Positions 9-39,817 of a stretch of 64,000 nt of DNA are shown here, piece by piece. The notes beneath the pieces were generated by a model. That model did not search any database. It saw only the letters and a program-made list of their open reading frames with translations, and was not told where the DNA came from. The position numbers were made by a program, and so were the translations under genes. Location of the stretch: contig CAUYUJ010018623.1 in assembly GCA_963575745.1 (NCBI GenBank), positions 112,001 to 176,000 on the forward strand. Reading direction: 5' to 3'. The first letter of the stretch is position 1, and each line of letters begins with the position of its first letter. The DNA comes from Prorocentrum cordatum (lineage: Eukaryota > Sar > Dinophyceae > Prorocentrales > Prorocentraceae).

Positions 9-810
9 TGGGACATTGTGCGCGCCTGGGCGCCACAGGAGATGCACTACCTCCGCGAGCTGACGGACGCCTGGAAAGACAATTCTTTGGACGAGGAGAA
101 TTATTGGCTTTGCAACGCCTGGCCCAACTTGATTCCCGATGCCTCTGGCGCGCTGCGTGTGGAGTGCCTGCCCCGGGATCATCCCGGATGGGGCCCCCTG
201 CGCGAGGTGTTCGGAATCAACAGCATCCCAGAATTATTGAAGCACTTGTTCAACAAGCACGACGGGAAGGTCAGAGTTGTTCGGTACTCCGGCTGGACGC
301 GTCTGCAGCACAAGTGCGTGACTCATCCTCGAGTCTGGCATTCCCAGTTCGCCAGGACCGAGAGTTCGCTGAGTTTTTTGTATTGGAGAGACAAGACAAA
401 CTGGCTCGAGTGGCACGACGTTGACAGGATTCTCAACGAGCAGCCTGACGGCCAGACGACGCTGCTCCGTCGTGCTCCCGCTGCCACCTGGCGCGCCTCC
501 TGGGATGTTCGAGGTGGACATGCGATTGGGACAAGTCGTGACGCTCGCACAGATGTTCGCTCTGGGCGCAGAGTACTGCACTGCCTACGACATGTACAAA
601 CTGTACATGGATCTGCCCATCCTCGTCCACAAGCACAAGAGGGAGAATCATATCGACCGAGAGCGCAGGCAAGACTCGACAGCTGTCCATGCCGAACAAA
701 GGGGCCAGGACGAAGTGAGCGCGAGCGCAATGACTTCCAGCTGCCTCTGGCGCTTCTTTCCTTTCAGAACGCACTGCCTTCCAGCTGCATCTGGCGCTCC
801 TTTTCCTTAG
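9..810 (+). CDS. Gene B copy 0: unknown family, 5' end outside window, frameshifted
   Basis: The function is not recognised. This is one of three paralogues in the window; the others are at 2436-3157 and 4882-6871. The reading frame is open from position 9 and begins WDIVRAWAP, so the true start lies upstream of the window. Shared blocks are a Leu-Cys-x-Ala-Trp-Pro region near 110-125, LLKHLFNKHDG near 240-265, a Trp-His-x-Gln-Phe-Ala-Arg-Thr block near 335-365, and a C-terminal block LGQVVTLAQMFALGAEYC followed by YDMYKLYMDLPILVH near 520-635. The N-terminal part is in frame 3 and the C-terminal part in frame 1. The change falls at 480-495, where a degenerate GCTGCCTCTGGCGC motif carries one extra base. 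The tail ends PAASGAPFP and a stop at 808-810. It may be a pseudogene, or the break may hide an intron. Confidence 0.5.
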
Positions 811-860
811 CGGCGGCGCCCTGGACTGCTTCGCGGTTTCTGTTCCGCGCGCTCGCGAGA

Positions 861-928
861 AAAATCTTGCTCGTGCTGCTGTTGCTGTTGCTGCTGCTCC
901 TCAATGCTGTTCAGGCTGCTCCTCACTG

Positions 929-973
<45 letters not shown>

Positions 974-1076
974 CCTCCTCCATGCTGCTGCTGCTGCTCC
1001 TCAGTGCTGCTGAGCTGCTGCTGCTGCTGCTCCTCCTTCTCTCCTGCTCCTCCCGCTCTTCGCCTCCTCGCTCATT
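861..1076. repeat. CTG/CTC-rich simple repeat
   Basis: The tract is rich in CTG and CTC triplets, with a near-pure CTG run at about 928-972. It is open in several frames on both strands, giving poly-Leu, poly-Ala or poly-Ser/Gln translations that have no other coding support. The stretch 811-1406 otherwise holds a few GCTGCCTCTGGCGC motifs (around 792, 1242 and 1272) and no convincing gene. Confidence 0.85.
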
Positions 1077-1406
1077 CTCCTGTTGCAGGCCTCTCCTGTC
1101 CTTCCGCCGTCCTCGCTCCTTTGGTCGCAGCGTTTGTAGGCTCGAGCCGCTCGACCGTGCAGCTGCGGCCGCGCCTGGCCCCTGGCTGCCGCCCTCGCGC
1201 GTGTCGCCCGCGTCATCGTGGGGAAGCGTGGCCAGAGGTCGGCTGCCTCTAGCGCCGGGGACTGTGACTTGGCTGCCTCTGGCGCCGAGGACGACGACCT
1301 GACCAGCCGTGTGCTTCGGTGAAAGAGGGGACACCCAGCAAGAGATTATGTTAAGCCGCCGCTCCAGCATTTCCAACCGTCGGACGGACTCGGTGCTGGT
1401 ACCCTC

Positions 1407-2351
1407 GTGCACTCCGTGCGATGTGGGTTTTACTCGCGGACGAGGTTCGGGAAGTTTGCTGGCGATTTAGTTTTGATTCCCATGTCTCGGAGAGTTCCTC
1501 CGTACGTCCAGCCAGTGCTCGGAGAGTCCGCGTTGCTCGTGTATGATACCGGGCCACTTGCCTACCCAGAGCACTGTGCGATGCAGCACGCGATGAGTGT
1601 TGACCGCATGGGCGCTCTTGCGGCGACGCATCCTCTCGCGGCGACGCTCTTATCCCATGTGAAGCTGGGGTGGAGCGAGAGGGTGCGAGATAGTCGAGGC
1701 CGCGCAAACGATGGCTTCGACCAGAGCCCCTACCACCTTTCAGTCAGTTTGGCAGGCTACGGGGGTGGCAAGACCCTTTACATGGGCCGTGCCACGAAGG
1801 GTGTTCGTGACAAGGACATGTTTGGTCTCTGGTGGCATCCGACGGGTCCAGACTGGAATGACACGCACATCAGGGCTGCTCGGCAGCTTTTCTTCGACGT
1901 CTGCGAGCTGGATGTCGAGAGTGTCTTTCCAATGGACGAGGGCGATGGGCCGTCGGCTGGCGGCGACCCCGCAGCTGCCTCTGGCGCGCTCGCGGGATCA
2001 GGCGGCGAGGGGCCCACGGAGGTGGAGCGGAAGGAGACTGTACGTCGGGCGCCTACGTGTCTGGTCGACTTGGAGGAAAGCCATTCCGCGAAAGAGTCCG
2101 ACTCTGCGGAGGAGGACAACTCCGACAGCTCTGCCAACGACAGCAGCCATGGGAGCAAAGCGGACCGCGACGGCTCTGCCAGGGAAGACGCTGCCTCTGG
2201 CGCAGAAGGTGGTGCTGCCTCTGGCGCAATGCCTGCTGCTGTTTCTCCTGCTGCCTCTGGCGCAACGCGGATTAAGGTCAAAGAAGTTCATTTTGCGACT
2301 TTCCGAGGTTGGGCAAAGGAAGCAGAAACTTGGCATTGCAGTGAAACATGA
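1407..2351 (+). CDS. Gene A copy 1: unknown protein with AASGA repeats
   Basis: The family is not recognised. The ORF opens with GTG; the first ATG in frame is at 1482 (MSRRVPPYVQ). Residues before that ATG still look protein-like, so the start is uncertain. The middle contains the block QSPYHLSVSLAGYGGGKT and then FGLWWHPTGPDW, which is shared with the second copy at 4198-4875. The C-terminal third is low complexity, acidic and Ser-rich, and carries four exact copies of the motif read as AASGA at 1974, 2190, 2214 and 2250. Gene B copy 1 follows within about 90 bases, as gene B copy 2 follows gene A copy 2, so A and B form a repeated pair. AGYGGGKT formally fits a P-loop pattern, but the paralogue lacks it. 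Confidence 0.55.
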   Translation: MHSVRCGFYSRTRFGKFAGDLVLIPMSRRVPPYVQPVLGESALLVYDTGPLAYPEHCAMQHAMSVDRMGALAATHPLAATLLSHVKLGWSERVRDSRGRANDGFDQSPYHLSVSLAGYGGGKTLYMGRATKGVRDKDMFGLWWHPTGPDWNDTHIRAARQLFFDVCELDVESVFPMDEGDGPSAGGDPAAASGALAGSGGEGPTEVERKETVRRAPTCLVDLEESHSAKESDSAEEDNSDSSANDSSHGSKADRDGSAREDAASGAEGGAASGAMPAAVSPAASGATRIKVKEVHFATFRGWAKEAETWHCSET

Positions 2352-2435
2352 CGAAGAGGAGGCGACGTCACGTCTCGCGCCTCATGGTGATGTTGCACCA
2401 GGGATGCTCTCCTTCTCCGGAGCCTCTAGATATCA

Positions 2436-3157
2436 TCAACGGCATCAGGCACTTCAACGACAAGCTCAAAAACGAGCGGTGGGACATTGTGAGGGCCTTC
2501 GCGACGTAGAAGTTGCATTATTTGGCTTTTTTCAGGGTGCATTTCGACGTTCCTCTCGACGAGAAGTGTTGGCTTACCAGCGCCTGGCCACACTCGAAAC
2601 GCGCCTCTGCCGGTGATCCGCATGTCATGTGCTTGCCGCGGCATTCAGAAGATTCACCCTCGTGGATGGTGCTTCGCGATATTTTAAAGATCGGCACCGT
2701 TCCCCACTTCTTGAAGCACTTGTTCAACAAACACGACGGGGAGGTCAGACTCATCCAGGACTTCGGCTGGAAGCATCTCGAACCTACTCACGCTCTACAT
2801 CCTCGCTTCTGGCATCCCCAGTTCGCAAGGACCGCGGAGGCGCGGATCTGGCTGTCCAATCGGACATCCGACAAAAGCCTCACGTGGAGGCAGGCTGGGT
2901 GGGTTCTGGACAAAGATGGTGGCCAGACGACGCTGCTCCCTCGGGCCCCCACGCCCCCCTGGAGACCCGCTGCCTCTGGCGCGAGGGCTCCTTGGAAGGA
3001 TGACTTCGATGTGGAGATCCGAGTTGGGCAAGTCGTCGCGCTCGCCCATTTGTTCTACCTGGGCGCACAGTTATGCAGTGCTTTTGACATGTACAAATTG
3101 TACATGGATCTCCCGATCCTTGTCCACAGGCAAAGGCGGGAGTCGAACCAAGCTTGA
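2436..3157 (+). pseudogene. Gene B copy 1, interrupted by one in-frame TAG
   Basis: This is a paralogue of the ORF at 9-810. Homology begins upstream of the first usable start: the frame reads DIINGIRHFNDKLKNERWDIVRAFAT, then TAG at 2507-2509, then KLHYLAFFR. Copy 0 has CAG (Gln) at that place, so one C-to-T change explains the stop. From 2513 the frame is open to 3157 and keeps all family blocks: LKHLFNKHDGEV, HPRFWHPQFARTAEAR, GQTTLL, RVGQVVALAHLFYLGAQLC and the ending DMYKLYMDLPILVH. Unlike copies 0 and 2, the central motif (2969-2982, read AASGA) does not disturb the frame. It may be a young pseudogene, or the first exon may be spliced around the stop. Confidence 0.5.
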
Positions 3158-3199
3158 GACCCCGCGACCCGGAAATGCATCCAGAAGGAGTGAGCGGGA

Positions 3200-3520
3200 G
3201 TCTCCTTGCCTCTGGCGCTGATGCGCTTCCACGCAGCATTCGCTTGCACGCTGCCTCTGGCGCTGATGCCCTTTCACACAACAGTGGCTTGCAGGCTGCC
3301 TGTGCCGCTGCCTTCGTTTGGCGTAGGGTTCTCCAGACTAGGGCTCCGTACTAGGTGCTCTGGACTGCGCCGCTGGTGCGCAGCGCGCCGCGGGGGAGGA
3401 AACAACAAAAAAATGGGCTCATGCTCTGCCGCTGCTGCCAGCTGCTGGTACTGCTGCTGCTCCGCCTCCTCCAGCTGCTGCTCCTGTTGTTGCTGCTGCT
3501 CCTCCTCCTGCAAGCCGCTG
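3200..3520 (+). repeat. Dispersed repeat, copy 1 (downstream of gene B copy 1)
   Basis: The segment starts with the motif followed by GATGCCCTTTCACACA and a GGCTTGCAGGCTGCC block. It continues through TCGTTTGGCGTAGGGTTCTCC and a GCCGCGGG block, and ends in TGCTGCCAGCTGCTG followed by CTG/CTC triplets. The same order of blocks recurs at 8300-8545 and, shortened, at 3968-4095. It follows the stop of gene B copy 1 by about 40 bases, so it could be a shared 3' flanking or untranslated region copied with the gene. Confidence 0.7.
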
Positions 3521-3537
3521 CCCCTGCTGCCGCTGCA

Positions 3538-3860
3538 AGCAGCAGGAGAGGCTGGAGGAGCACGGCGCTGGGGGAAACGCGACGGGAAGCAGGTGCCCCC
3601 TGGGTTCGCGCAGAGGCTCAACCACGCGAGGTTCTCGCAATACCAATAGCCCGCGACTCCAAGGGTTGCCGAGCCAACCGCGGGCGCACCCGCACGTCGC
3701 GACGCCAAGGGTGCGCCAGTGGTTGGCTCGGCAACCCTTGGAGTCGCGGGCTATTGGTATTGCGAGAACCTCGCGTGGTTGAGCCTCTGCGCGAATCCAG
3801 GGGGCACCTGCTTCCCCTTGCGTTTCCCCCAGTGCCGTGCTCCTCCAGCCTCTCCTGCTG
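3538..3860. repeat. Long inverted repeat with a 17-base loop
   Basis: The left arm, 3538-3691, is nearly the reverse complement of the right arm, 3709-3860, over about 150 bases with only a few mismatches. The spacer is 3692-3708. Shared blocks include GGGAAGCAGGTGCCCCCTGG, GAGGTTCTCGCAATACCAAT and AGGGTTGCCGAGCCAACC on the left, each mirrored on the right. RNA from either strand would fold into a very long hairpin. No transposase or terminal repeats were seen. It could be a foldback element, a source of small RNA, or a local inverted duplication. Confidence 0.9.
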
Positions 3861-3967
3861 CCGCTGCTCTTGTTGCTCCTCCGCCTCCTCCAGCCTCTCC
3901 TCCTGCTGCTCCTCCACCCTCATGCTCCTCCGCCTCCTCCAGTCTCTCCTGCTGCTGCTCTTTCTCC

Positions 3968-4095
3968 CCCGCAGGCTGCCTCTGGCGCTGATATCCGTTC
4001 GCGCAGCAATGGCTTGCAGGCTGCTGCTGCCAGCTGCTGCTACTGTTGCTGCTCCGCCTCCTCCAGCTTCTCCTGCTGCTGCTCGTGTTGTTGGT
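3968..4095 (+). repeat. Dispersed repeat, shortened copy
   Basis: It matches the beginning (motif, GATATC, a CGCAGCAATGGCTTGCAGGC block) and the end (TGCTGCCAGCTGCTGCTAC and CTG/CTC triplets) of the repeat at 3200-3520, but lacks the middle. The neighbouring 3860-3967 is CTC/CTG-rich low-complexity sequence. Confidence 0.6.
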
Positions 4096-4197
4096 GCTGC
4101 TGCTGCTGGTCTCCTCGTCATCCACCTGCTCTTCCCGCAAGTCCGTGGCGTTTGCCGGCTCGAGCGGGGACGGCGCGAACGCGGCGCGTTAGCCGCG

Positions 4198-4875
4198 ATG
4201 GGTCGCCGCGGCGCGGAGAAGGCTGCCTCTGGCGCGCGTTCTTCTGCGGTGGATGACTTCGCCGTGGCGTCGGCAGCCGAGTCCTGGAGGTCCTGGCGAG
4301 AAGTACATCCCGTCCGACCTGGTGGCCCCGTTAATTTCCGGCATGGTGGACGGCCAACCAAAAACGGCCAGAGGCCTTGGTGCGCGTACACCAGTTACTC
4401 AAATGGCAAGGTCGTCCAGGAATGGTGGACGACGCCGTTCCTCGTGCTTATTCACGAGGTGACCACGATGATAGGTAACCGCGGTGTTGAGACAACGCTG
4501 CAAAAATGTTGCGTCGCTGCCTCTGGCGCGGGGCCAGAGACGCACATACGCCGGGCGGACATCTACAGGATCGCGTCTATGGCCAGGAGCCACCCCATGG
4601 TCTGTCATGCGCGGCGTGGACCCAACGACAAAGACCAACACCTAGAGAAGAAGGACACATTTCGTCGCGCAGAAAAATAGCACCAGTCTCCATTTGATCT
4701 GCACCTGTCGGTGGCGTCCCGCGTGGAGATGATCGTCGGGTGCTCTGTCAACGGGGCCGCCAAAACTGCGCGTGATGACCCTGCTGCTCATGGGCTGGTC
4801 GGTTTGTGGTGGAAGCCTGCTCGTCAGGCGAAGCTCTCGCCGGAGCAAGAGGATGTGGCCCCGGCAGTCTTTTGA
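4198..4875 (+). pseudogene. Gene A copy 2, interrupted by in-frame TAG
   Basis: The ATG at 4198 opens a frame that starts MGRRGAEKAASGARSS and has exact motifs at 4222 and 4516, both read as AASGA. A TAG stands at 4678-4680. The same frame then continues HQSPFDLHLSVASRVEMIVG and on through GLVGLWWKP to a stop at 4873-4875. This downstream part matches QSPYHLSVSLAGY...FGLWWHP of gene A copy 1, so the TAG interrupts homologous coding sequence. The N-terminal half does not clearly resemble copy 1. The gene ends seven bases before the ATG of gene B copy 2, repeating the A-B order. Confidence 0.45.
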
Positions 4876-4881
4876 GACTTG

Positions 4882-6871
4882 ATGGAAGGCGACCATCGAG
4901 TGCCAGAAATATACGCCCACGAGTTTCACGCTCTTCCAAACGTCTCCGCTGCCTCTGGCGCGTCCGCTGCCTTTGCCGCGCCCGCTGGCTCTGGCGCGTG
5001 CGCCGCTCCTGCTGCTGCTGCTGCAGCTGCTGCCGTTGCTGCTCCTGCGGCAGCTCCTGCTGCGCCAGCTGCTCCTGCGCCAGCTGCAGCTGCTGCGGTT
5101 GTTGCAGCTCCTGCGCCAGCTGCAGCTGCTGCTCCTGCTGCGCCAGCTGCTCCCGCGGCAGCTCCAGCTCAGTTCCCGCCGCTGCCGCCGGGGCTGCCGC
5201 AGGCGGCGCCACCGCCTGCCGCGGCGCCGCCGCAGGCGCCGCCGCCTGCGGCGCCTCAGAAGGCGGCGCCGCCGCTTGCCGCGGCGACTTCACAGAATAC
5301 CAGCACCGCTGCCTCTGGCGCGCGTGTCATGCCACCCCAGCATGTGGCACCGCTGGCATCGGTGAGCGCCGCCAACGCTGCTAGCTCGCCGCCGCCGCCG
5401 CGGCCGGCCGCCAGCTCGCCGCCGCCGCCGCCAGGGCAGCCTCCTGCGAGTGCCGCGCCTGCTGCTGCTGCTGCCGCCGCGCCGCTCCTGCCTGCCTCTC
5501 GCGGCTATGCTGCGCCTTCGGTAGCGACGGCCTCGGGCAGCGCGATCGCGGCGCCTCCGCCTGCAAGCCAGTCGATGGACACGACGCGACGGGGGAGACA
5601 CGAGGAGCGGACAGAAGAGCGGCGGACGAGGATGCGTTCCGAAAGCCAGCCGAGACCGACCGAGGCGGATCTGTCTGCCGTTTCTGGCGCATCTGCTGCC
5701 TCTGGCGCATCAGAATCAGGGGACGAGTCAGAGGTTGGCGCATCAGAATCAGGGGACGAGTCAGAGGTTGGTGTCTCTGGCGACCTCGACTTTGTTGCTG
5801 GTGTCACCGACGACCCCGGTTTGGTGTCACTGACGACTCCTCTGTCTGAGCCGGCCTTGTCGCGATTGCCCGAGGCTCAAAGGGCCGAGCTACGCGCGGT
5901 CTACCGATCGGACAGGCCTAGGGAGTACCATTTCGTCGGCAATTGGGCGAGTTGGGAAGCGAACGCAAGAGCTCTGGTCCGAAACTGGCAAATGCCGCAG
6001 CTCCAGGACGCAAGCGGCCATGCGCTTCTGCGCCGGCTCGACCATTTCTGCGAGCCGGTCCCTACGCTGGGGCAGTTTTTCCACGGCATGCCCCACCGAA
6101 ACGACAACCCAGACAACGCGGGGCAGATGTGGGACGTCGCGCGCGCGCTGGCCTCCAAGAAACAACACTACAAGAAGCGGCTCCAGCAGGCCCTGTGGCG
6201 TGACGCTGCCTCTGGCGCGCCTGTCGCTGCCTCTGGCGCGCCCTTCGCCGACGCATGCCCGAATGCCGTGCTCGGCGACGGGTGGGCGGCGCTCGCGCCA
6301 GAGGCCTTCGAGCAATCGAAGCGCCTAGCCGGCATTCCCAGCGACGAAAGGTACGTCCACCACATCCTCGAGAAGCACGGCGGCGAGGCGCGGCACTGGG
6401 GGGCCCGCGCATGGATCGAGGTGGACTCTGGCCACATCGCGATGCTCTTCCACGTCAATTTCTGGCATCGCCAGCTAGTCAAGACCGAGCGGGCGCGTGA
6501 GTTTCTGGTCTGGGCGAATGCGAGAAAGGGAGACGGAATTCCTGCCTCTGGAGGACATCAACACGGTCCTGCACGTGGAGGATGGCGAGACCTACGTTCT
6601 CAAGCGTGTCATCCGCGACGTCACCTCTGCCTCTGGCGAGACGTGGTACATCAGGGCGGGCAATTACGTAACACTTGCGGAGCTGTTCGACTCCGGGTGC
6701 CGCCTTTGCTCCTGCCGCTACCTGTGCACGTTGTACCTCCGACAACCGATGTTCGTGCACAGGAAAGGGCACAGCCGGTCGCAGTCGGAGCAGGTTGGTA
6801 TCAACAGGAATGCCCGGCGCCTCCAGTTTGTGGAGACAGGGAGATGGCGCCTGCCCCGGCGGCCAGGGTGA
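4882..6871 (+). CDS. Gene B copy 2: Ala/Pro-rich N-terminus plus gene B domain, frameshifted
   Basis: The function is not recognised. A long N-terminal extension of about 240 residues is rich in Ala, Pro and Gly. It is followed by a charged stretch and a duplicated 11-residue acidic block (5707-5772). The gene B homology region begins near 6280: GDGWAALAPEAF, HILEKHGGEARHW, and NFWHRQLVKTERAREFLVW near 6460-6515. The frame moves by +1 between about 6510 and 6540. The C-terminal part then reads LEDINTVLHVEDGETYVLKR, a motif copy read SASGE at 6627, NYVTLAELFDSGCRLCSC and LYLRQPMFVHRKG, and stops at 6869-6871. Exact motifs at 4948, 5308, 5695, 6205 and 6226 are all in the AASGA frame. The frameshift may be decay or an unrecognised intron. 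Confidence 0.55.
5707..5772 (+). repeat. 33-bp tandem duplication inside gene B copy 2
   Basis: Two adjacent near-identical 33-base units each encode ASESGDESEVG. They start directly after a motif copy (5695-5708), so the motif may have taken part in the slippage. Confidence 0.9.
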
Positions 6872-7109
6872 GAGCGCGGCACTGCTGGGTCGCTGCCTCT
6901 GGCGCGTCTTTGCGACACTTACTTACTTCTGCCCTAGCTGCCTCTGGCGCTTCCTTACTTCTGCGCGCAGCGCGTCGCTGCTGAGCACGCTCGCCTGCGC
7001 ACGGGCGAAAGGAAAAAAGCAGCCGACGTCATCGCCGACATCGTCCTCGTCGTCGTCATCGCCACTCGCATCATTGTGCTCTCTGTGCGTTGTGCTCTCT
7101 GTGTAATTT
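6872..7109 (+). other. Intergenic stretch with two motif copies and GTC/CAT-rich sequence
   Basis: The stretch contains exact motifs at 6892 and 6937 and a short (TCG/TCA)-rich tract near 7025-7070. I see no convincing gene in it. Confidence 0.5.
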
Positions 7110-7478
7110 TTGTTTTCCTGTTTACTGTTCTCTTGGTGTTGTTTGATTTCTCGCTTGGTGTTTGGCTCACTTCTTATTATGGTCGCGTTAAGTTTCCTCC
7201 TGGTCGTGTTTAGTGTTTTCCTGGTCGTGATTAGTTTTCTACTTGTCGTGTTTGGCTTTCCTATGGTAGTGTTTTGTTTTCTCTTGGGTTCTGCTTCGTT
7301 TTCTCCTGGTCGTGTTTAGTTATTTCCTATGGTCGCGTTTAGTTTTGTCCTGGTCGTGTTTAGTTTTACCCCGGTCGTGTTTAGTTTTCTCCTGGTCGTG
7401 TTTCGTTTTCTCATGGTCGAGTTGGGTTTGTCCTGGGTCGCGCTTAGTTTCCTCGTGTTCGCGTAGTGTTCCTGACAG
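7110..7478 (-). repeat. 21/42-bp satellite, minus orientation, degenerate array
   Basis: Degenerate 21-base units of the type GTCGTGTTTAGTTTTCTCCTG run through the segment. This is the reverse complement of the units found after 9765. It is the most divergent array in the window and probably the oldest edge. Confidence 0.8.
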
Positions 7479-7613
7479 ACAATCCATGCCCAGCTCGACG
7501 TCGTCTTTTGGGATCAAGTCACGCAAGCGCGCTGACCTTGGCATCGCTTACCGCTGGCCTCTCGCGGCTCTTCTTCTGCTCCAGCTTTCCCTCCTCGCGC
7601 AGGCGCCCGCGCC

Positions 7614-8000
7614 ATGGGGCACGCGCGAACGTCTGCTGGCGGCTGCGGCTCCGCCGCCGCAGAGTACGACGCGCGCATCCAGGAGAATCAGCAGATGGCT
7701 TTGGCGCTCGCAGAGAAGGAGCTGGAGATCCGCAAGCTCAAGGAGGATAAGTCGGAGTACAAACGCAAGTACGAAGATCTGACTTCGACTCTGAAGGCGC
7801 CGGCGGACGGCGTCGGGAACGCGGCGCTGCCTGCTGAGGCTGCCGTCGCTGCCTCCGGCGCGCGCGCGCAGGGCAAGAACGACAAGAAGGGCGACTTCCA
7901 GGACAAGAACTTCCCGCTGAAGGCCCACCGCCAGGCGAAGCCAGTGGTCGCGGACAGCTCCGGGAAGATCCACGAGAAGGTCGAGGGCCCTAACGCTTGA
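7614..8000 (+). CDS. Small coiled-coil-like ORF of unknown function
   Basis: The ORF encodes 128 residues from ATG. Residues about 20-62 are highly charged with heptad-like spacing (AEKELEIRKLKEDKSEYKRK), suggesting a short coiled coil. A motif variant near 7850 is read as AASGA, in the same frame as in genes A and B. The C-terminal part is Lys-rich. It has no recognised domain. Its strand and motif agree with the A/B genes upstream, which supports coding, but it could be an exon of a larger gene. The following 8001-8300 is GC-rich, with one exact motif at 8097 and no convincing gene. Confidence 0.4.
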   Translation: MGHARTSAGGCGSAAAEYDARIQENQQMALALAEKELEIRKLKEDKSEYKRKYEDLTSTLKAPADGVGNAALPAEAAVAASGARAQGKNDKKGDFQDKNFPLKAHRQAKPVVADSSGKIHEKVEGPNA

Positions 8001-8299
8001 CGCCTACGCCTGAAACGCGAATGGCACCGTCGCAACAAGGCAAACAGGGCGGCTCTCAGTGGACCAGGATCAGGACTTGTTCCAGCCATCGGAGACGCTG
8101 CCTCTGGCGCGCGCCGCGCTGACGACAGCTGCGGCGCAAGTTCTGCGAGGGCACAGGGCAGCGCGGGTGGGGGATGTTCAAGTGCAAGCGGCGGTGCAGC
8201 GGCAGCGGCTGCGGAGGAGGAGGACCGCCGCGACGACGAGGAGACGGCCCCCGAAGAGCCACGCAGCAAGAAGATGAATAACCGCACCGGGATCGTCGA

Positions 8300-8545
8300 C
8301 TGATCCAGGCTGCCTTTGGCGCTGATATCTTTTCACACAGAAATGGCTTGCAGGCTGCCTCTGACGCTTCCCTCGTTTGGCGCAGGGTTCTCCGCCAGAC
8401 TCGGGGCCCCGTATCAGCTAGGTGCTCTCTGCGCCGCTGGCGCAGCGTGCCGCGGGAAAAAAGGAACGCTCATGCTCTGCCGCTGCTGCCAGCTGCTGCT
8501 ACTGCTGCTGCTCCGCCTCCTCGAGCTTCTCCTGCTGCTGCTCTG
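8300..8545 (+). repeat. Dispersed repeat, copy 2
   Basis: It carries the same block order as 3200-3520: motif variant, GATATCTTTTCACACAG, GGCTTGCAGGCTGCC, TCGTTTGGCGCAGGGTTCTCC, a CGCGGGAAAAAAGGA block, CATGCTCTGCCGCTGCTGCC and CTG/CTC triplets. The two copies are on the same strand about 5 kb apart. Three more motif copies follow at 8552-8624; 8625-8860 holds nothing recognised. Confidence 0.7.
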
Positions 8546-8859
8546 CGACACACTGCCTCTGGCGAGGATGACGCAGAGTAGGCGACGCACTGCCTCTGGC
8601 GTGCCACAACGCTGCCTCTGGCGCGCCCCTTGCCACGCGAGTGGTCCCTCGAGCACTCGCTTCCGAGAGGGGCCTGGTGGCATCGGCTCTGAGGGGTGAA
8701 TTCTCGCATGAAGGTTGTCGCAGAAGTTTTTTGACTCTCACTTTTGGCCGCGCGTGACGTCCATGCGCGGAATTCTCGGCTCGGACAAAGTGATGTCGGC
8801 CCCGCTGCTGCCATCGCCGCAGGTCTCGCCAGTCACGATCTCCTCTCGATACCGTCCCC

Positions 8860-9036
8860 GACGACTCTCCGACTCCCGGACGACTTCCCGACGACTCCCC
8901 GACTCTCCGACTCTCCGACTTCCCGACTCCCCGACTCCCCGACCGAGTCCCCGACTCCCCGACTCTCCGATTCCGACTCTCCGACGACTCCCCGACTCCC
9001 CGATTCCCCGACTTCCCCGACTTCCCGACTTCCTAC
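8860..9036 (+). repeat. CCGACT-type minisatellite
   Basis: Short units such as CCCGACTC, TCCGACTC and CCGACTTC are repeated head to tail and lead directly into the minus-oriented 21/42-bp satellite. Confidence 0.85.
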
Positions 9037-13244: not shown

Positions 13245-14990
13245 GCGTTGTGGGTGCCGCTTTCGGTGGGGCTCCATATGGGGCCACGAAGCGCTGCCTT
13301 GGATGGGGGAACCGCATGCGGACTGCGCCACCGGGGCGGGCCTTCGGTGGAGCTCCCTATGGGGCTACGAAACGCTGCCCTGGGTGGGGGAACCGCATGC
13401 GAACTGCGCCACTGGGGCCTTCGGTGGAGCTCCCTATGGTGCCACGAAACGCTGCCCTGGGTGGGGGAAGCGCATGCGAACTGCGCCACGGGGGCTTTCG
13501 GTGGAGCTCCCCATGGGGCCACGAAGCGCTGCCCTGGGTGGGGGAACCGCATGCGAGAGCAGCCACTGGGGCCTCCGGTGGAGCTCCCTATGGGGCCACG
13601 AAACGCTGCCCTGGGTGGGGGAACCGCATGCGAGAGCAGCCACTGGGGCCTTCGGTGGAGCTCCCTATGGGGCCACGAAGCGCTGCCCTGGGTGGGGGAA
13701 CCGCATGCGAACACCCCCACTGGGGCCTTCGGTGGAGCTCCCTATGGGGCCACGAAGCGCTGCCCTGGTGGGGGAACCGCATGCGAACACCCCCACTGGG
13801 GCCTTCAGTGGAGCTCCCTATGGGGCTACGAAACGCTGCCCTGGGTGGGGGAACCGCATGCGAACACCCCCACTGGGGCCTTCGGTGGAGCTCCCTATGG
13901 GGCCACGAAACGCTGCCCTGGGTGGGGGAACCGCATGCGAACACCCCCACTGGGGCCTTCGGTGGAGCTCCCTATGGGGCCACGAAACGCTGCCCTGGGT
14001 GGGGGAACCGCATGCGAACACCCCCACTGGGGCCTTCGGTGGAGCTCCCTATGGGGCCACGAAACGCTGCCCTGGGTGGGGGAACCGCATGCGAACACCC
14101 CCACTGGGGCCTTCGGTGGAGCTCCCTATGGGGCCACGAAACGCTGCCCTGGGTGGGGGAACCGCATGCGAACACCCCCACTGGGGCCTTCGGTGGAGCT
14201 CCCTATGGGGCCACGAAACGCTGCCCTGGGTGGGGGAACCGCATGCGAACACCCCCACTGGGGCCTTCGGTGGAGCTCCCTATGGGGCTACGAAACGCTG
14301 CCCTGGGTGGGGGAACCGCATGCGAACACCCCCACTGGGGCCTTCGGTGGAGCTCCCTATGGGGCCACGAAACGCTGCCCTGGGTGGGGGAACCGCATGC
14401 GAACACCCCCACTGGGGCCTTCGGTGGAGCTCCCTATGGGGCTACGAAACGCTGCCCTGGGTGGGGGAACCGCATGCGAACACCCCCACTGGGGCCTTCG
14501 GTGGAGCTCCCTATGGGGCCACGAAACGCTGCCCTGGGTGGGGGAACCGCATGCGAACACCCCCACTGGGGCCTTCGGTGGAGCTCCCTATGGGGCCACG
14601 AAACGCTGCCCTGGGTGGGGGAACCGCATGCGAACAGCCCACTGGGCCCTTCGGTGGAGCTCCCTATGGGGCTACGAAACGCTGCCCTGGGTGGGGGAAC
14701 CGCATGCGAACACCCCCACTGGGGCCTTCGGTGGAGCTCCCTATGGGGCCACGAAACGCTGCCCTGGGTGGGGGAACCGCATGCGAACACCCCCACTGGG
14801 GCCTTCGGTGGAGCTCCCTATGGGGCTACGAAACGCTGCCCTGGGTGGGGGAACCGCATGCGAACACCCCCACTGGGGCCTTGCGGTGGAGCTCCCTATG
14901 GGGCCACGAAACGCTGCCCTGGGTGGGGGAACCGCATGCGAACGCCCCCACTGGGCCTTCGGTGGAGCTCCCTATGGGGCTACGAAACGC
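13245..14990 (+). repeat. 77-bp tandem repeat array
   Basis: About 22-23 head-to-tail copies of a 77-base unit contain GGGTGGGGGAACCGCATGCG, ACTGGGGCCTTCGGTGGAGC and CCACGAAACGCTGCCCT. The inner copies are nearly identical; those at the left edge (13250-13560) are more divergent, which fits array growth from the middle or right. Since 77 is not a multiple of three, the array stays open in all frames and gives long spurious ORFs that rotate frame every unit. No spacers are present, so it is not a CRISPR array. Confidence 0.96.
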
Positions 14991-31470: not shown

Positions 31471-31617
31471 CCACGAGCTGTGCTGCGCTGTGCTGAGCTG
31501 AGCCGTGCTGGGCTGTGCTGAGCTGTGCTGAGCTGAGCCGAGCTGTGCTGTGCTGAGCTGAGCTGAGCTGTGCTGTGCTGTGCTGAGCTGAGTTGAGCTG
31601 AGCTGAGCAGTGCTGTG
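31471..31617 (+). repeat. GCTGA/GCTGT pentamer block, copy 1
   Basis: Pentamers GCTGA, GCTGT, GCCGA and GCTGG repeat head to tail directly after the 90-bp array. The first ~100 bases are almost identical to the block at 35785-35890. Confidence 0.93.
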
Positions 31618-31772
31618 ACGAGGGGGGGGGGGGGGGGGAGTGAAGTGCGCGTGTGTGTGTGTGTGTGTGTGAGTGAGAGGAGGAAGAAAGAGAGAGGAGG
31701 GGAGGTGCGAGGAGACGCGGGTGCGGCGCGGCAGGGAAGAAAACCAGCACCCCACGAAGCATGTGGGGAACT
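31618..31772. other. Linker with G17, (GT)n and GA-rich sequence, copy 1
   Basis: It contains 17 G at 31622-31638, a (GT)n run at about 31650-31671 and an AG-rich stretch, then GCGGCGCGGCAGGGAAGAAA and ACCAGCACCCCACGAAGCAT. The last part recurs at 35920-35974; the homopolymer and GT run do not. Confidence 0.8.
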
Positions 31773-31774
31773 AC

Positions 31775-33911: not shown

Positions 33912-34097
33912 ATTACGCTACCGAGGAACTCCACATACTTAATTTAATATTATGTGCTTGCTTAAAGTTATCATATATGCGCAATTCTGCGTTCTCAGCC
34001 CTCGTCGCGAATGTTCCCCTCTGTGTCATCCAACGCCATATTGCTTGAACCTCCTTCCTCTTCCCAGCCTTCTATCCTCCATCGAGGACAGATTCGA
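33912..34097 (+). repeat. 185-bp module, copy 2 (unoccupied junction)
   Basis: It matches 16389-16578 from ATTACGCTACCGAGGAAC to CATCGAGGACAGATTCGA. Here it is followed at once by the 90-bp array (GCCAGCCAGCGGCCGCGG), whereas in copy 1 the Helitron segment intervenes. Confidence 0.9.
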
Positions 34098-35785
34098 GCC
34101 AGCCAGCGGCCGCGGTGAGGGACCACACCCTGCGCACCCTCTGTGGTGTCGAGAAAGTGCCACGGCTGCAAAGCGTTGCGCCAGTGTCGTGGATAGCGGC
34201 CGAGCTGAGAAACCACCCCCTGCCCACCCCCTTTGGTGTCGAGAAGGTGCCACGCCTGCTAGCCTTTGCGCCAGTGTCGTGGATGGCGGCCGGGCTGGGA
34301 GACCACCCCCTGCGCACCCCCTGCGGTGTCGCGAAAGTGCCACGCCTGCTAGGTTTTGCGACAGTGTCGTGGATAGCGGCCGAGCTGAGAGACCACCCCC
34401 TGCGCACCCCCTGTGGTGTCGAGAAAGTGCCACGCCTGCTAGGCTTTGCGCCAGTGTCGTGGATAGCGGCCGAGCTGAGAGACCACCCCCTGCGCACCCC
34501 CTGTGGTGTCGAGAAAGTGCCACGCCTGCTAGGTTTGCGCCAGTGTCGTGGATAGCGGCCGAGCTGAGAGACCACCCCCTGCGCACCCCCTGTGGTGTCG
34601 AGAAAGTGCCACGCCTGCTAGGCTTTGCGCCAGTGTCGTGGATAGCGGCCGAGCTGAGAGACCACCCCCTGCGCACCCCCTGTGGTGTCGAGAAAGTGCC
34701 ACGCCTGCTAGCTTTGCGCCAGTGTCGTGGATAGCGGCCGAGCTGAGAGACCACCCCCTGCGCACCCCCTGTGGTGTCGAGAAAGTGCCACGCCTGCAAA
34801 GCGTTTGCGCCAGTGTCGTGGATAGCGGCCGAGCTGAGAGACACCCCCCTGCGCACCCCGTGGTGTCGAGAAAGTGCCACGCCTGCTAGGCTTTGCGCCA
34901 GTGTCGTGGATAGCGGCCGAATTGAGAGACCACCCCCTGCGCACCCCCTGTGGTGTCGAGAAATTGCCACGCCTACTAGGCTTTGCGACAGTGTCGTGGA
35001 TAGCGGCCGAGCTGAGAGACCACCCCCTGCGCACCCCGTGTGGTGTCGAGAAAGTGCCACGCCTGCTAGGCTTGCGCGGCAGTGTCGTGGATAGCGGCCG
35101 AGCTGAGAGACCACCCCCTGCGCACCCCCTGTGGTGTCGAGAAAGTGCCACGCCTGCTAGCTTTGCGCCAGTGTCGTGGATAGCGGCCGAGCTGAGAGAC
35201 CACCCCCTGCGCACCCCCTGTGGTGTCGAGAAAGTGCCACGCTGCTTTTGCGCCAGTGTCGTGGATAGCGGCCGAGCTGAGAGACCACCCCCTGCCCACC
35301 CCCTTGTCGTGTGTGCGGTGTCGAGAAAGTGCCACGCCTGCTAGGCTTTGCGCCAGTGTCGTGGATGGCGGCCGAGCTGAGAGACAACCCCCTGCGCACC
35401 CCCTGTGGTGTCGAGAAAGTGCCACGCCTGCTAGGCTTTGCGCCAGTGTCGTGGACAGGGACCGCGGTGAGATACCACCCCCTGCGCACCCCCTGTGGTG
35501 TCGAGAAAGTGCCACGCCTGCTAGACTTTGCGACAGTGTCGTGGGTAGCGGCCGAGCTGAGAGGCAACCCCTTGCCCGCCCCTTTTGGCGTCGAGAGAGT
35601 GCCACGCCTGCTGGGCTTTGCACCAGTGTCGTGGATAGCGGCCGAGCTGAGAGACCACACCCTGCCCACCCCCTTTGGTGCCGAGAGAGTGCCACGCCTG
35701 CCAGGCTTTGCGCCAGTGTCGTGGATAGCGGCCGAGCTGAGAGACCAACCCTTGCGCACCCCCTGTGGTGTCGAGAAAGTGCCAC
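34098..35785 (+). repeat. 90-bp tandem array, copy 2
   Basis: About 18-19 copies of the 90-base unit described for 29838-31470 repeat here, on the same strand, with scattered short deletions and one small insertion near 35307-35318. Confidence 0.96.
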
Positions 35786-35897
35786 GAGCTGTGCTGTGCT
35801 GTGCTGAGCTGAGCCGTGCTGGGCTGTGCTGAGCTGTGCTGAGCTGAGCCGAGCTGTGCTGTGCTGAGCTGAGCTGAGCTGGGCTGTTCTGTGCTGA
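35785..35897 (+). repeat. GCTGA/GCTGT pentamer block, copy 2
   Basis: It is nearly identical to the first ~100 bases of the block at 31471 and follows the second 90-bp array in the same way. Confidence 0.92.
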
Positions 35898-35974
35898 GGA
35901 GGGGAGGCGTGAGGTGAGGTGAGACGCGGGCGCGGCGCGGCAGGGAAGAAAACCAGCACCCCACGAAACATGTG
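35898..35974. other. Linker, copy 2
   Basis: It holds GAGGGGAGGCGTGAGG, then GGCGCGGCAGGGAAGAAAAC and CAGCACCCCACGAAACATGT, matching the end of the linker at 31700-31772 but lacking the G17 and GT runs. Confidence 0.8.
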
Positions 35975-36992
35975 GGGATCTAAACATGACCCTACCAAAA
36001 CTAAACGAGACCCTAGGCAAACGAAACAGGACCCTGTCAAAACTAAACGAGACCCTAGGCAAACTCAACAGGGCCCTAGCGGAACGAAGCGAGACTTTAG
36101 GATAACTAAACAGGACCCTACCAAATTTAGCGAGGCCCACGGAAAACTAGACATGGCCCTACCAAAACTAAACGAGGCCATAGGAAGACTAAACAGGGCC
36201 CTAGCAAAACAAAACGAGACCATATGACAACAACACGGGACCCTACCACGACTAAGCGAGACCTTCGGACAACTAAACAGGACCCTACCAAAACTAAACG
36301 ATACCCTAGGACAACTAAACAGGACCCTACCAAAACTAAGCGAGACCCTAGGACAACTAAACAGGACCATACCAAAACTAAACGAGACCCTGGGACAACT
36401 AAACAGGACCGTAGAACAATGAAACGAGACCCTGGGCAAACTAAACAGGACCCTACCAACACTAAACGAGACCCCAGGACAACTAAGCAGGACCCTACCA
36501 GAATTGAACGAAACCTTAGGAGAAAAACAAACTAAACAGGACCCTACCAAAACTAAACGAGACCCTAGGACAACTACACAGGACCCTCGCAAAACTGAAC
36601 GAGACCCTAGGAAAAATAAACAGGACCCTACCAAAACTAACGAGACCCTAGGACAACTAAACAGGACCCTACCAAAACTAAACGAGACCCTAGGAACACT
36701 AAACAGGACCTGACCAAAACTAAACGAGACCCTAGGACAACTAAACAGGACCCTCGCAAAACTGAGCGAGACCCTCGGACAACTAACAGGACCCTACCAA
36801 AACTAAAGGAGACCCACGGACAACTAAACAGGACCCCACCAAAACTAAACGACGAGACCCTAGGAAAACTAAACAGGACCCTAGCTAAACGAAACGAGAC
36901 CCTAGGACAATTAAACAGGACTCTACCAAAACTAAACGAGACCATAGGAACACTAGACCCTACGAAAACGAATAAAAAGACCTTAGGAACAA
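35975..36992 (+). repeat. 21/42-bp satellite, plus orientation, right-hand array
   Basis: The same unit repeats here; it is the last plus-oriented array before the second strand switch. Confidence 0.94.
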
Positions 36993-37300
36993 CAAAATAA
37001 ACAATAGTGTATTTTCGTAGTTTTCTCCAGGGTCTTGTTTAGTTTTCCGACGGTATTGTCTAGATTACCTACGGTATTGTCCTCTAGGGTCGCGTTGAGG
37101 CTTCACTGGGGTATTCTTCAGTTTTCGTAGTGTCGCGTTTAGTTTCCCCTATGGTCGTCTTTAGCTTTCCTAGGGTCGTGTTTAGTTTTCCTCGGGTCGT
37201 TTTAGTTTTCGCCAGGGTCGCGTTCCGTTTTCTCCTTGTCGCGTTTAGTTTTCTCCCCCTTTATTGTGTTTAGTTTTCTCCAGGGTCGCGTTTAGTTTTC
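36993..37300 (-). repeat. 21/42-bp satellite, minus orientation, degenerate
   Basis: After an AT-rich junction (AAACAATAGTGTATTTTCG) the units run in the opposite sense (GGTCGCGTTTAGTTTTCTCC). They are divergent, as in the array at 7110-7478. Confidence 0.8.
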
Positions 37301-37413
37301 TCACGTGGGGTTGAAGTCCCCACTTGTTTCCGTAGCGCTTCGTGGCTCGAGGTCGTTTGGAGCCATTCTTATCGCAAGTTATCCATTTTGCTTGTCTCGC
37401 CGTTCGCCGCAGA

Positions 37414-38058
37414 ATGTCACTGGTTCGCGAACTCGCTGACGGGCAGCTCTCGGTGAAAGGGCCAATCATCACCATCAATTTGCGGAGGCTCCCCGCTGGG
37501 CATTGCCGCGGCAAGGAGCTGCTGGTGCAGGTTCCGGTCAAGATCAACTTGCGTGCCAGGTCAGCCGAGGCCCCAGAAGGTCCGCCAGAGGTTCCTGAAG
37601 GTGATGGCCAGCGCGCCAAAGCGCTGAAGGCCCAGCCTGAGACTGAAGCGGCTTCACTGCCTCTGGCGCGCACGCTCTCTCCACGGATGGCGAGCGCGGT
37701 GGTGCCGCCGCCGACTCGCGACCCGCTGGAGACGCCGACGCCGTCGTCTCTGATCAGATCGCCGACGCTGGAGACGCCGGCGCCGAGGGCGGACGAGAAC
37801 GACGCTGAGCTGGCTAGCAGCAGCAGTCGTGCTCATTCTGGCCCAAGGGAGGGCGTTCCGAGCGCAGGCTCTGCAATTCACGAGAACCTGCTGCCTTTGG
37901 GGGCAATCATGGTAAAGGATTCCCCCACGCATGAGACGGCTGCCGTTGGCGCTCGCTCGTCGCGCGGCCTAGTCGCAGCGGCCTACGATGGCCCCCCGAC
38001 GATGCCTCCCGACGATTCGCAGCAGCTCTACGACAGCAATGGCAACTTCATCGGATAA
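37414..38058 (+). CDS. Unknown protein with Pro/Ala/Ser-rich C-terminus
   Basis: The ATG at 37414 (MSLVRELADGQLSVKGPIIT) is preferred; the frame is open upstream to 37342 without protein character. The first ~70 residues look globular, with INLRRLPAGHCRGKELLVQV and PVKINLR. The remainder is low complexity, rich in Pro, Ala, Ser and Glu, and ends QQLYDSNGNFIG. A motif copy at about 37660 is read LPLA here, not AASGA, an exception among the better ORFs, so the frame in that part is less certain. The gene lies at the far side of the satellite domain in the same orientation as genes A and B. Confidence 0.45.
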   Translation: MSLVRELADGQLSVKGPIITINLRRLPAGHCRGKELLVQVPVKINLRARSAEAPEGPPEVPEGDGQRAKALKAQPETEAASLPLARTLSPRMASAVVPPPTRDPLETPTPSSLIRSPTLETPAPRADENDAELASSSSRAHSGPREGVPSAGSAIHENLLPLGAIMVKDSPTHETAAVGARSSRGLVAAAYDGPPTMPPDDSQQLYDSNGNFIG

Positions 38059-38344
38059 AGTTGTTCGAGCGCGCTCCGCTGCCACTGGCGCGCCGCTGCC
38101 TCTGGCGCGCCAAATTTTGAAGCCGAGGGTGGTTGGCCTCATCCCTTATCAAGTCGATGAGGGGGGGTTATTCAGAGGCCTTGAGTGTGAGATGATGTTG
38201 TTCACATTCTGCGTAGTCAGCTCCGTTGCTACTCTCCGCGCAGGGCATGGTCGGCGCATGCTCGACGCGCGAACCTGTCGCCGCAGATTGGCCACGGTAA
38301 AAAAAGAAGAGCTTTCGAAGGCTCTTGCGTCCCTGGTCGTGCTT

Positions 38345-38465
38345 ACTTCTTCCTATGGTCGTGTTTAGGTTTTCTGTAGTTTAGTTTTTCCATGGTCGCG
38401 TTTAGTTTCCTCCTGGTCGTGTTTAGTTTTTCCCCCCCCCCAGGTCGTGCCTGATCTTTCCGCGG
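38345..38465 (-). repeat. 21/42-bp satellite remnant, minus orientation
   Basis: A few units of GGTCGTGTTTAGTTTTTCC type with a C10 run at about 38435 lie between two motif-bearing ORFs. Upstream, 38059-38344 has two motif copies and no convincing gene. Confidence 0.75.
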
Positions 38466-38608
38466 TCGGATTTTGTTTTTGCGTCGCATGTCGGCTCGAA
38501 CCCGCTGATGCTCAGCGTTCCTCGCTTCGCCACTAGCGCACTCGCTTCGCCTTATTCCGCCGCGCGCGAAGCCGCTGCCTCTGGCGCGTCGCGCGCTGCG
38601 CGGTCCCC

Positions 38609-39250
38609 ATGGCGGCGCCATGGCCGAACTTCGAGGCCTCGCGCGTCGAGGCGGTCGAAGCGTACCTGCTGGAGCAACGCGTCAGCGACAAGAAGATCAG
38701 CTGGCGCACCGTGCTGAATAACCATGCCTCGACGCGCCCTAAAGAGCACGGAGGCGCTTTGGTCCGAGCCGCCACCAATTGCAAGGTATTCGCTGCCTCT
38801 GGCGCGGGCTGGCGGTGCACCCTGACTTTGCCGAACAGCTTTGCGCCGGGAGATGGCCGTCGGCTCGTTGCGATCGGGGAAAGCGAGACGAAAAACTAAG
38901 CGTCGGAACTCGCTTGCCTCCGAGCCGTCGCTTCGCTCGTCATCGAAAACCCAGGCCAGGTTGTGTTCCGACCGGTGCACTGGAAGGTGACGCCCGACGT
39001 GCTCGTGGCCAATCTGCCCGGCGTCGCCGCCGACCCTGCCTCTGGCGGGCACGCGCTGCCAGTGCGCACCCCTGCGCGCCTCCAGGGCGCGGGCTCGGAG
39101 GCTGACGCGCATGACGCTGACGCGCGCTTGGTTGAACTCGTGGAGGACATTCCCAAAACGCACGGCGGCGAGTTCGATCCGTCGCGGATTTCCCGGAAGA
39201 AGGTGCGTTGGCGCGACGAGCGCCCGTGGGGCACATTCAGTAAGCTTTAA
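38609..39250 (+). pseudogene. Unknown ORF interrupted by one in-frame TAA
   Basis: The ATG at 38609 opens MAAPWPNFEASRVEAVEAYL, runs through a motif read FAASGAGW at 38792 and LTLPNSFAPGDGRRLVAIGE, and reaches TAA at 38897-38899. The same frame continues with good protein character, SLVIENPGQVVFRPVHWKVT and PDVLVANLPGVAADPASGG. It goes on to DARLVELVEDIPKTHGGEFD and stops at 39248-39250. The family is not recognised. The total length, 214 codons, is close to that of gene B copy 1, and the phrase THGGEF weakly recalls KHDGEV/KHGGEA of gene B, which I treat as suggestive only. Confidence 0.4.
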
Positions 39251-39627
39251 TGCCTGGGGGGCTGAAGGGCTTCCTCGACAAACGCTCCGATAAATTCGCC
39301 CGGCGCGCGCACGCAGGCAACAAAGGCGTGCTCATCACATGGGCGAACTGGGCGGCGCAGGAGGGGCGCGTCCCGCCACCATGGGAGCGCCCCGCCACGG
39401 GCGAAGTCGCGCTGCCTCTGGCGTGCCCCGCAATAGCGACAGCGCCCCAACAGGGAGTGGCCTCAGGAAGCGGCCTGAAGCGGCCTGGGGGCGCCCCGCC
39501 AACTCGCCGCCCTCAGGAAGCGGCCTCGGGAAGCGGCCAGAATGCACTGCCCCTGGCGTCGCCCGACAATTCACCGCCCTCAGGAAGCGGCCAGGATCAG
39601 AGCAACCCTTGGGAAGACCCTGCCTAG
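39250..39627 (+). CDS. Small ORF, basic start and Ser-Gly/Pro-rich tail, unknown
   Basis: The ORF encodes 125 residues. Its ATG overlaps the preceding stop as TAATG. The N-terminus reads GGLKGFLDKRSDKFARRAHA and GVLITWANWAAQEG; the C-terminal half is built on repeated AGGAAGCGGCC-type units giving GSG-rich sequence. It may be the downstream part of the ORF at 38609-39250 after a frame change rather than a separate gene. Confidence 0.35.
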   Translation: MPGGLKGFLDKRSDKFARRAHAGNKGVLITWANWAAQEGRVPPPWERPATGEVALPLACPAIATAPQQGVASGSGLKRPGGAPPTRRPQEAASGSGQNALPLASPDNSPPSGSGQDQSNPWEDPA

Positions 39628-39817
39628 GCCTCTGGCGTGGCCGAGTCGCTGCCTCTGGCGTGCCGCTGCCTCTGGCGCGTCTTCTGAGGCCAACGCGGCG
39701 TCGCGGCAGCCGTTGCCTTGCCTAGGCCTCTGGCGTGGCCGAGTCACTGCCTCTGGCGTGCCGCTGCCTCTGGCGCGTCTTATGAGGCCAACGCGGCGTC
39801 GCGGCAGCTGTTGCGAG
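39622..39817 (+). repeat. 98-bp tandem duplication carrying motif copies
   Basis: Two adjacent 98-base units start at 39622 and 39720. Each holds GCCTAGGCCTCTGGCGTGGC, two more CTGCCTCTGGCG motifs and GAGGCCAACGCGGCGTCGCG. They differ at only a few positions, so the duplication is recent. Confidence 0.9.

Follow-up and report, generated by a model that had tools for sequence, protein, structure and literature searches.

Short hairpin repeats in gene clusters of Prorocentrum cordatum may descend from 12-base, sense-strand insertions at small palindromes

REP sequences and the ends of IS200/IS605 elements are short, imperfect, strand-asymmetric hairpins with an unpaired base, found in bacteria and mostly between genes. 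Rickettsia palindromic elements, also bacterial, are about 100-150 bp long. The Rickettsia elements are reported to be palindromic repeats inside coding genes whose protein product persists, and to lose repeat identity over time (PMC6649704), and nematomorph mitochondrial genes contain translated inverted repeats of unrelated sequence with a mean length of 43 bp (PMC6649704). Introner elements of dinoflagellates are introns with inverted repeats of 8-20 nt and boundary direct repeats of 3-5 nt, reported to be enriched in P. cordatum introns (PMC7789003, PMC10666404), while DNA uptake sequences of Neisseria and Pasteurellaceae number hundreds to thousands in genes, in both orientations genome-wide, with one orientation commoner in reading frames (PMC2346458). 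Here, we describe a hairpin motif in a 64,000-nucleotide stretch of the P. cordatum genome (the window: contig CAUYUJ010018623.1, here C17774, positions 112001-176000). Its copies share an identical 12-base core, are sense-oriented in all stretches examined, and have mostly complementary flanks, the complementarity ending at two bases. They show no clear target duplication, favor one reading frame, and are mostly common to related gene clusters.

Like the Rickettsia elements, the motif is a palindrome in frame within coding sequence (56 of 77 copies in long open reading frames, ORFs, share one frame, and flanks and core pair), and identity decays in both. It differs in its size (a constant part of 12 and a pairing part of 16 bases), its nuclear eukaryotic setting, its single orientation, and flanks that pair site by site. 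Introners are likewise short, dispersed, equipped with inverted repeats, and spreading in dinoflagellate genes; however, the motif copies lack the 3-5 nt boundary direct repeats described for them, and in the genomic sequence, the only kind used here, open frames continue on both sides with no intron seen. The target-site duplication of classical DNA transposons and miniature inverted-repeat transposable elements is likewise missing. DNA uptake sequences resemble the motif in shortness, abundance, and orientation bias in genes, but the motif keeps to one strand per cluster and, among the listed places, mostly to one cluster family. The nematomorph palindromes share the location inside translated genes and differ in being long, mutually unrelated, and mitochondrial, whereas a single 16-base family is found here. 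Finally, REP and IS200/IS605 hairpins share the short bulged stem and the strand asymmetry, and differ as bacterial, mostly intergenic sequences.

An earlier, sequence-only reading of the window had noted a 14-base motif, GCTGCCTCTGGCGC, in 25 exact plus-strand copies forming two clusters. Our recount agrees: all 25 are on the + strand and span 0.7-8.7 and 37.6-39.8 kb. Allowing up to two mismatches gives 47 matches, against 1.35 expected from shuffles, and the minus strand holds two matches, each with two mismatches. The 12-base core, CTGCCTCTGGCG, occurs 33 times on the + strand and never on the - strand, and no exact copy was found in the window beyond the two motif regions. The 14-mer is indeed repeated exactly, but the true unit is 16 bases, NN-CTGCCTCTGGCG-N'N', in which the flanks differ between copies and mostly pair with each other. 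Similarly, the tiny hairpin suggested for the GCC-TCT-GGC core is present in a larger form: the 16-mer folds into three pairs, a bulged T, three further pairs, and a TCT loop (6 bp in total, -5.7 kcal/mol, folding z-score -1.6).

For the 33 window cores, the first flank pair is complementary in 29 and the second in 28 (21.8 and 18.3 when shuffled), and the third in 2. Reverse-complementary flank dinucleotides occur in 13/17 coding and 11/16 non-coding copies by our own classification. The test was repeated on 20 further stretches of the same genome, where 111 unique contexts gave 100 and 83 complementary pairs (65.5 and 41.3 when shuffled), with no excess of complementarity at positions past the second flank base. 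Pooling the window with these 20 loci left 136 unique contexts, with 121 and 104 complementary outer pairs against 83.8 and 53.7. Both pairs are complementary in 93 contexts (32.4 when shuffled), one pair mismatches in 39, and two in 4.

Among 150 combinations of offset, length, and orientation scanned at the element boundary, the inverted 2-base match stands far above all others. The direct 2-base match (53 against 30.6) is due to CG..CG, GC..GC, and one TG..TG, the only context whose identical flank dinucleotides lack self-complementarity. Shifted direct matches are weak (at most 9/136 against 2.9, for 3 bases) and do not extend to most copies. No target-site duplication is evident across these contexts and combinations. 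Relative to background palindromes, the 93 complementary contexts are enriched in CGCG (3.2-fold) and TGCA (2.5-fold), GCGC stands at 0.39-fold, and GATC, AATT, ACGT, ATAT, TATA, TTAA, and GTAC are absent. Where a copy is read as Ala-Ala-Ser-Gly-Ala (AASGA), both bases of the second flank pair occupy third codon positions, and any base is synonymous at the right one (GCN), which makes protein selection an unlikely source of the pairing.

Whole-genome counts (4,128,499,153 bases, 21,875 contigs) were set against the reversed motif as control; each count comes with about 100 listed places, to which statements on individual places refer. The 14-mer has 1089 + 1384 = 2473 matches (control 53 + 69 = 122), CACTGCCTCTGGCGTG has 83 + 128 = 211 (control 1), and WGCTGCCTCTGGCGCW has 217 + 262 (control 19). 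The wider pattern DCTGCCTCTGGCGH has 2183 + 2608 (control 386), including single copies of an unrelated repeat. A hand count of the first 100 listed WGCTGCCTCTGGCGCW places, some of which represent one site seen in several related clusters, gave 45 TG..CA and 33 AG..CT (78 complementary), 12 AG..CA, and 10 TG..CT. The excess over controls, genome-wide and in the window, rules out a chance origin. A microsatellite or tandem repeat was rejected as well: local duplications exist, yet most copies lie in unrelated contexts. A splice-site motif is inconsistent with the open frames on either side.

Clustered copies among the listed places occupy one strand per contig, and cores oriented by cluster in the window and the 20 loci are 168 sense and 0 antisense. 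An even spread over strands and frames, proposed earlier as the outcome that would speak against a frame-respecting element, was thus not found, the frames being unequal as well. The form ending in GCGA occurs as single copies on both strands; both of those inspected are part of an unrelated repeat. Six of 12 single-copy loci have complementary flanks; this is no independent test because the search pattern fixes the inner pair. Five of the 12 (L142, L143, L145, L171, L172) belong to one repeat, at least 3 kb long and 93-99% identical across contigs, which carries the 12-base core outside the clusters. Beyond this genome, the 14-mer occurs in at least 120 stretches of viral contigs (a single match per stretch in the 80 listed). 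Two cores within 30 bases turned up at 20 prokaryote loci and 1 viral locus, and the 2-7 cores of each locus share a strand. Rfam gave no match at the gathering threshold, protein P0003 had no relatives in the other sequence collections, and none of the publications listed by the literature searches concerns this motif by title or abstract.

A 221-bp query from the 38.6 kb gene had 40 matches scored out of 60 candidates; 38 of the 40 cover the query at 88-100% identity, one per contig. On 12 contigs, 10.6-18.0 kb separate this piece from a 191-bp piece around site 6227, the order and orientation of the two being constant; on the window contig and on contig C689, the distance is 32-43 kb. Because both pieces recur together across contigs, the motif-bearing genes form a large dispersed cluster family. 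None of 16 cluster proteins matched Pfam above the cut-off, no search having been aimed at the Y1 HUH transposase. One has a weak resemblance to Dicer_dimer (E 0.25, below the cut-off), for which its gene is called double-stranded RNA-binding domain (dsRBD)-like.

We tentatively read the motif as a family of very short insertions, in which 12-bp pieces entered in sense orientation at 4-bp palindromes and were then filtered by reading frame. The inserted piece would be CTGCCTCTGGCG; the flanks would belong to the site, forming NN^N'N' (with CG^CG and TG^CA favored), and the product would be the 16-base bulged hairpin. Each copy would have arisen by insertion, at a site palindromic beforehand. 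A symmetric dimer acting on a palindromic target should produce independent half-site preferences and no covariation, whereas covariation at free sequence requires either mutual pairing of the flanks or a single guide matched by both. In combination with the one orientation, this favors, we infer, a hairpin of one DNA strand or of a transcript at insertion. The insertion may have used one strand folded as a hairpin, either a transcript or a strand exposed in transcription or replication, and such an intermediate would explain both the single orientation and the mutual pairing of the flanks. A net gain of 12 bases would leave the reading frame intact at any position. Selection would then have purged most copies in the other two frames, read as Leu-Pro-Leu-Ala (LPLA) and Cys-Leu-Trp-Arg (CLWR), and retained AASGA, small residues being tolerated in linkers. 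As part of the same tentative reading, the burst would be older than the dispersal of the host clusters, and the copies would decay about as fast as the sequence around them or somewhat more slowly. Compared with its relative on C689 (87.5% and 85% identical), the window cluster has counterparts for 26 of 27 copies, two of them damaged. Whether all this amounts to an undescribed eukaryotic nuclear micro-insertion (12 bases, sense-only, at the center of free 4-base palindromes, without duplication or change of frame, through a single-strand or RNA intermediate) is more doubtful, and we regard it as possible.

The sequence-only reading had suggested comparing relatives with and without the motif for a clean insertion, and one clean 12-bp difference was found, a single event of ambiguous direction. 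At 6227, the C689 relative has CGCG and lacks exactly the 12-base core, the break falling at the center of CGCG. Of the 40 scored matches to the 191-bp query, 9 are full length (including the window), 1 is near full length (87% identity), 10 are shorter by 9-12 bases (86-89%), 19 are shorter by about 18 (78-81%), and 1 is partial. The core is also absent on C14722 and on C20366, the near-full length of the latter being due to another insertion; absence in several copies counts as one event. When 238 copies were tested against the loci examined, no further clean empty site emerged, and the other listed candidates looked like alignment artifacts or chance. The dsRBD-like gene was rejected as an empty site, its 76%-identical relative having an altered, longer segment there, nor did the gene around 37656 reveal a clean empty site when compared with a distant relative.

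Several points weigh against insertion. The presence/absence difference is the only independent one found, and it could be gain or loss because CG-CG slippage deletes the same 12 bases and the outgroup copy lacks a further 9. Related clusters supply versions of the same site, so that the contexts are not fully independent. The third flank pair is complementary in 21/136 contexts against 34.0 expected (p 0.004), an avoidance that a simple palindromic target does not predict, and we know of no enzyme requiring a palindrome of free sequence. Over 138 copies aligned between related clusters, flank pairs differ at 4.2% and the core at 4.8%, against 7.5% for the next twelve positions; moreover, the loop carries 23 of the 46 single mismatches in copies with paired flanks. 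Both the slower flank change and the loop mismatches hint at hairpin selection. A looser set of 120 alignments contains 3 paired-to-paired double changes, by eye misaligned neighbors with local identity of 0.69-0.71.

Selection of this kind would be expected if the 16-base stem-loop had a role in transcripts, such as binding a protein, with orientation following transcription and frame bias following protein tolerance. Such a functional RNA hairpin accords with the bulged 6-bp stem, its triloop, and its folding energy, with the slow flanks and mutable loop, and with copies in coding and non-coding parts alike. It also accords with one site at which relatives carry either CG..CG or GG..CC, the two forms being separated by a change and a 2-bp indel. 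However, 276 pair comparisons contain 21 single paired/unpaired changes and 0 paired-to-paired double changes. Nor does breaking the core stem clearly abolish the pairing: flanks pair in 18/29 stem-mutated and 90/130 exact copies (p 0.51), with 22/26 for loop-mutated and 3/6 for bulge-mutated cores. Among comparisons that include an exact copy, 3.5% of core positions differ, against 7.4% of those around the core; a ratio of about one half is what case selection alone would give, and the folding z-score is just -1.6. Because the outer pairs decay mostly without compensation, flank pairing looks, on balance, mainly like a property of birth, weak constraint being possible, and we consider a functional RNA hairpin an unlikely source of the motif.

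Somewhat less likely again is that the whole 16-base hairpin was copied by template switching or gene conversion, the outer bases traveling along from a few founder types. Nine complementary flank classes do have at least two copies each, and 39 of the 43 non-complementary contexts have a single mismatching pair, while the avoidance of a third pair would fit processing at the foot of the 6-bp stem and the local tandem units show that duplication happens. Yet a net gain of 16 bases shifts the frame while the coding copies stay in frame, the sole presence/absence difference is 12 bases and not 16, and sequence past the second flank base is generally not common between sites.

Frames were counted in the window and the 20 stretches for ORFs that reach 250 aa and exceed each of the other two frames 1.5-fold in length. 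AASGA accounts for 56/77 copies, LPLA for 13, and CLWR for 8, where about 34% AASGA is expected; 4-base palindromes of the same ORFs are flat over the three phases (926/929/855), and the bias has p 6e-12. With repeated contexts removed, the counts are 45/62, 10, and 7, and loosening the limit to 100 aa weakens the bias (91/153, 41, and 21). The earlier claim that the motif is read only as AASGA was therefore too strong. The 13 ORF copies it named and the variant at 7848 all have AASGA in the longest open frame, and the exception it named, at 37656, reads LPLA. Its list of coding copies was short: 8097 (AASGA), 6626 (SASGE), and 39035 (PASGG) are also judged coding by reading and paralogues, the longest open frame at the last two differing from the frame judged coding. 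At least one exception in the count comes from a spurious ORF: 6627 was scored as CLWR, where the paralogue-supported frame gives SASGE. The proposed spread of a frame-respecting element through genes is supported in part, mostly though not always in frame, because the copies are exact rather than synonymous, orientation is sense-only, the frame is biased, and one 12-bp presence/absence difference exists.

Selection for an AASGA linker peptide, with no spread at the DNA level, would also produce this bias, and many AASGA copies lie within Ala/Ser/Gly-rich stretches. We think it very improbable: exact copies use the same codon wherever synonyms exist, third codon positions hold the second flank pair in the AASGA frame, and the same core with paired flanks recurs outside long ORFs (46/74 contexts), which also leaves the earlier idea of a peptide linker or processing signal as driver unsupported. 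Just as improbable is a minimal intron-like segment of 12 bases, excised from the mRNA or bypassed during translation; a gene A copy near 490-500 has an extra loop base after which the reading shared with the paralogues continues in another frame, as if length were irrelevant, but the frame bias is unexpected for a removed segment and disfavors removal, other frame breaks and stops of the region lie outside the motif, and no splice-like ends were seen.

Copies with exact and one-mismatch cores in the window are listed in Table 1. Non-coding elements also occur in pairs or triples 44-45 bp apart, near or soon past stops (740/784, 3205/3250/3295, 6892/6937, 8309/8354).

Table 1. Exact elements and one-mismatch cores of the window, named by their flank dinucleotides
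Feature	Position	Strand	Remarks
Element AG..CT	739..754	+	Complementary; close to end of gene A
Element GG..CC	1271..1286	+	
Element AG..CG	1973..1988	+	AASGA frame, ORF 1323-2348
Element CG..CA	2189..2204	+	AASGA frame
Element TG..CA	2213..2228	+	AASGA frame
Element TG..CA	2249..2264	+	AASGA frame
Element CG..CG	2968..2983	+	AASGA frame, ORF 2510-3154
Element CG..CT	3249..3264	+	Past stop of ORF 2510-3154
Element GG..CT	3974..3989	+	Not in clear coding sequence
Element GG..CG	4221..4236	+	AASGA frame
Element CG..CG	4515..4530	+	AASGA frame
Element CG..CG	4947..4962	+	AASGA frame, ORF 4876-6981; first of three 18-bp units
Element CG..CG	5307..5322	+	AASGA frame
Element TG..CA	5694..5709	+	AASGA frame
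Element CG..CG	6204..6219	+	AASGA frame
Element CG..CG	6225..6240	+	AASGA frame; three relatives read have CGCG without the 12-base core
Element CT..AG	6625..6640	+	SASGE in paralogue-supported frame
Element CG..CG	6891..6906	+	Past paralogue-supported stop near 6868
Element AG..CT	6936..6951	+	45 bp beyond element 6891..6906
Element CG..CG	8096..8111	+	AASGA frame, ORF 8001-8300
Element CA..AG	8551..8566	+	
Element CA..TG	8588..8603	+	
Element CG..CG	8610..8625	+	
Element CA..CG	37655..37670	+	LPLA in ORF 37336-38055
Element CG..CG	38094..38109	+	Right after ORF 37336-38055
Element CG..CG	38573..38588	+	Upstream of ORF 38609-38899
Element CG..CG	38791..38806	+	AASGA frame, ORF 38609-38899
Element CC..GG	39034..39049	+	PASGG in ORF 38900-39247
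Element CG..TG	39410..39425	+	
Element CG..TG	39647..39662	+	First unit of 98-bp duplication
Element CG..CG	39664..39679	+	
Element CA..TG	39745..39760	+	Second unit of 98-bp duplication
Element CG..CG	39762..39777	+	
One-mismatch core CG..CG	137..152	+	DASGA in gene A
One-mismatch core AG..CT	783..798	+	
One-mismatch core GG..CC	1241..1256	+	
One-mismatch core CC..CT	3204..3219	+	
One-mismatch core CG..CG	4983..4998	+	AGSGA
One-mismatch core GC..GC	5490..5505	+	
One-mismatch core TC..GA	6540..6555	+	LPLE in paralogue-supported frame
One-mismatch core (loop) CG..CG	7847..7862	+	AASGA frame
One-mismatch core (loop) GG..CT	8308..8323	+	
One-mismatch core GG..CT	8353..8368	+	45 bp beyond element 8308..8323
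One-mismatch core (loop) CG..CG	38077..38092	+	
One-mismatch core (loop) CA..TC	39545..39560	+	

The window is a mosaic, with the motif genes at about 1-9 kb and 37.3-39.8 kb. Three diverged paralogous genes (1-700, 2345-3157, and 5900-6870) have frame breaks or in-frame stops, one break in the first of them falling within the loop of an element copy. Two other genes of the motif regions have an in-frame stop absent from a related copy, and an inverted repeat at about 3600-3800 lies between motif-bearing genes. Between the motif regions are 21/42-bp satellites and a minus-strand Helitron (about 17-27 kb; Helitron_like_N 3.4e-13, DUF6570 2.1e-11, PIF1 7.1e-9), where a 930-aa ORF fuses a ubiquitin-hydrolase-like stretch (UCH, slightly below the cut-off) with DUF6570. 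The satellite arrays, of the GTTTAGTTTTCCTAGGGTC type, run in both orientations at 9.0-13.2, 15.1-16.4, and 31.8-37 kb, beside the motif genes, and the satellite word had no matches in viral contigs. In addition, a 77-bp tandem array with long open frames (22 copies, 95% matches) occupies 13262-14990. The region from about 48 kb was read as a copia-like retrotransposon; 13 ORFs tested there gave one Pfam match above the cut-off and no transposon domain, the match being of ORF 60425-62434 to the Tpt1/KptA RNA 2'-phosphotransferase (E 9.8e-7).

If the insertion reading is true, genes of this dinoflagellate would gain four amino acids per event, recurrently, in a fixed orientation and with the frame kept automatically, and eukaryotes would acquire short in-frame insertions and coding hairpins by a new route. 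The flank covariation is unusual, and since a protein reading half-sites would not yield it, the nature of the intermediate can be tested. Even under the rival explanations, about two thousand hairpin copies in a large gene-cluster family, on the sense strand wherever examined, need explaining.

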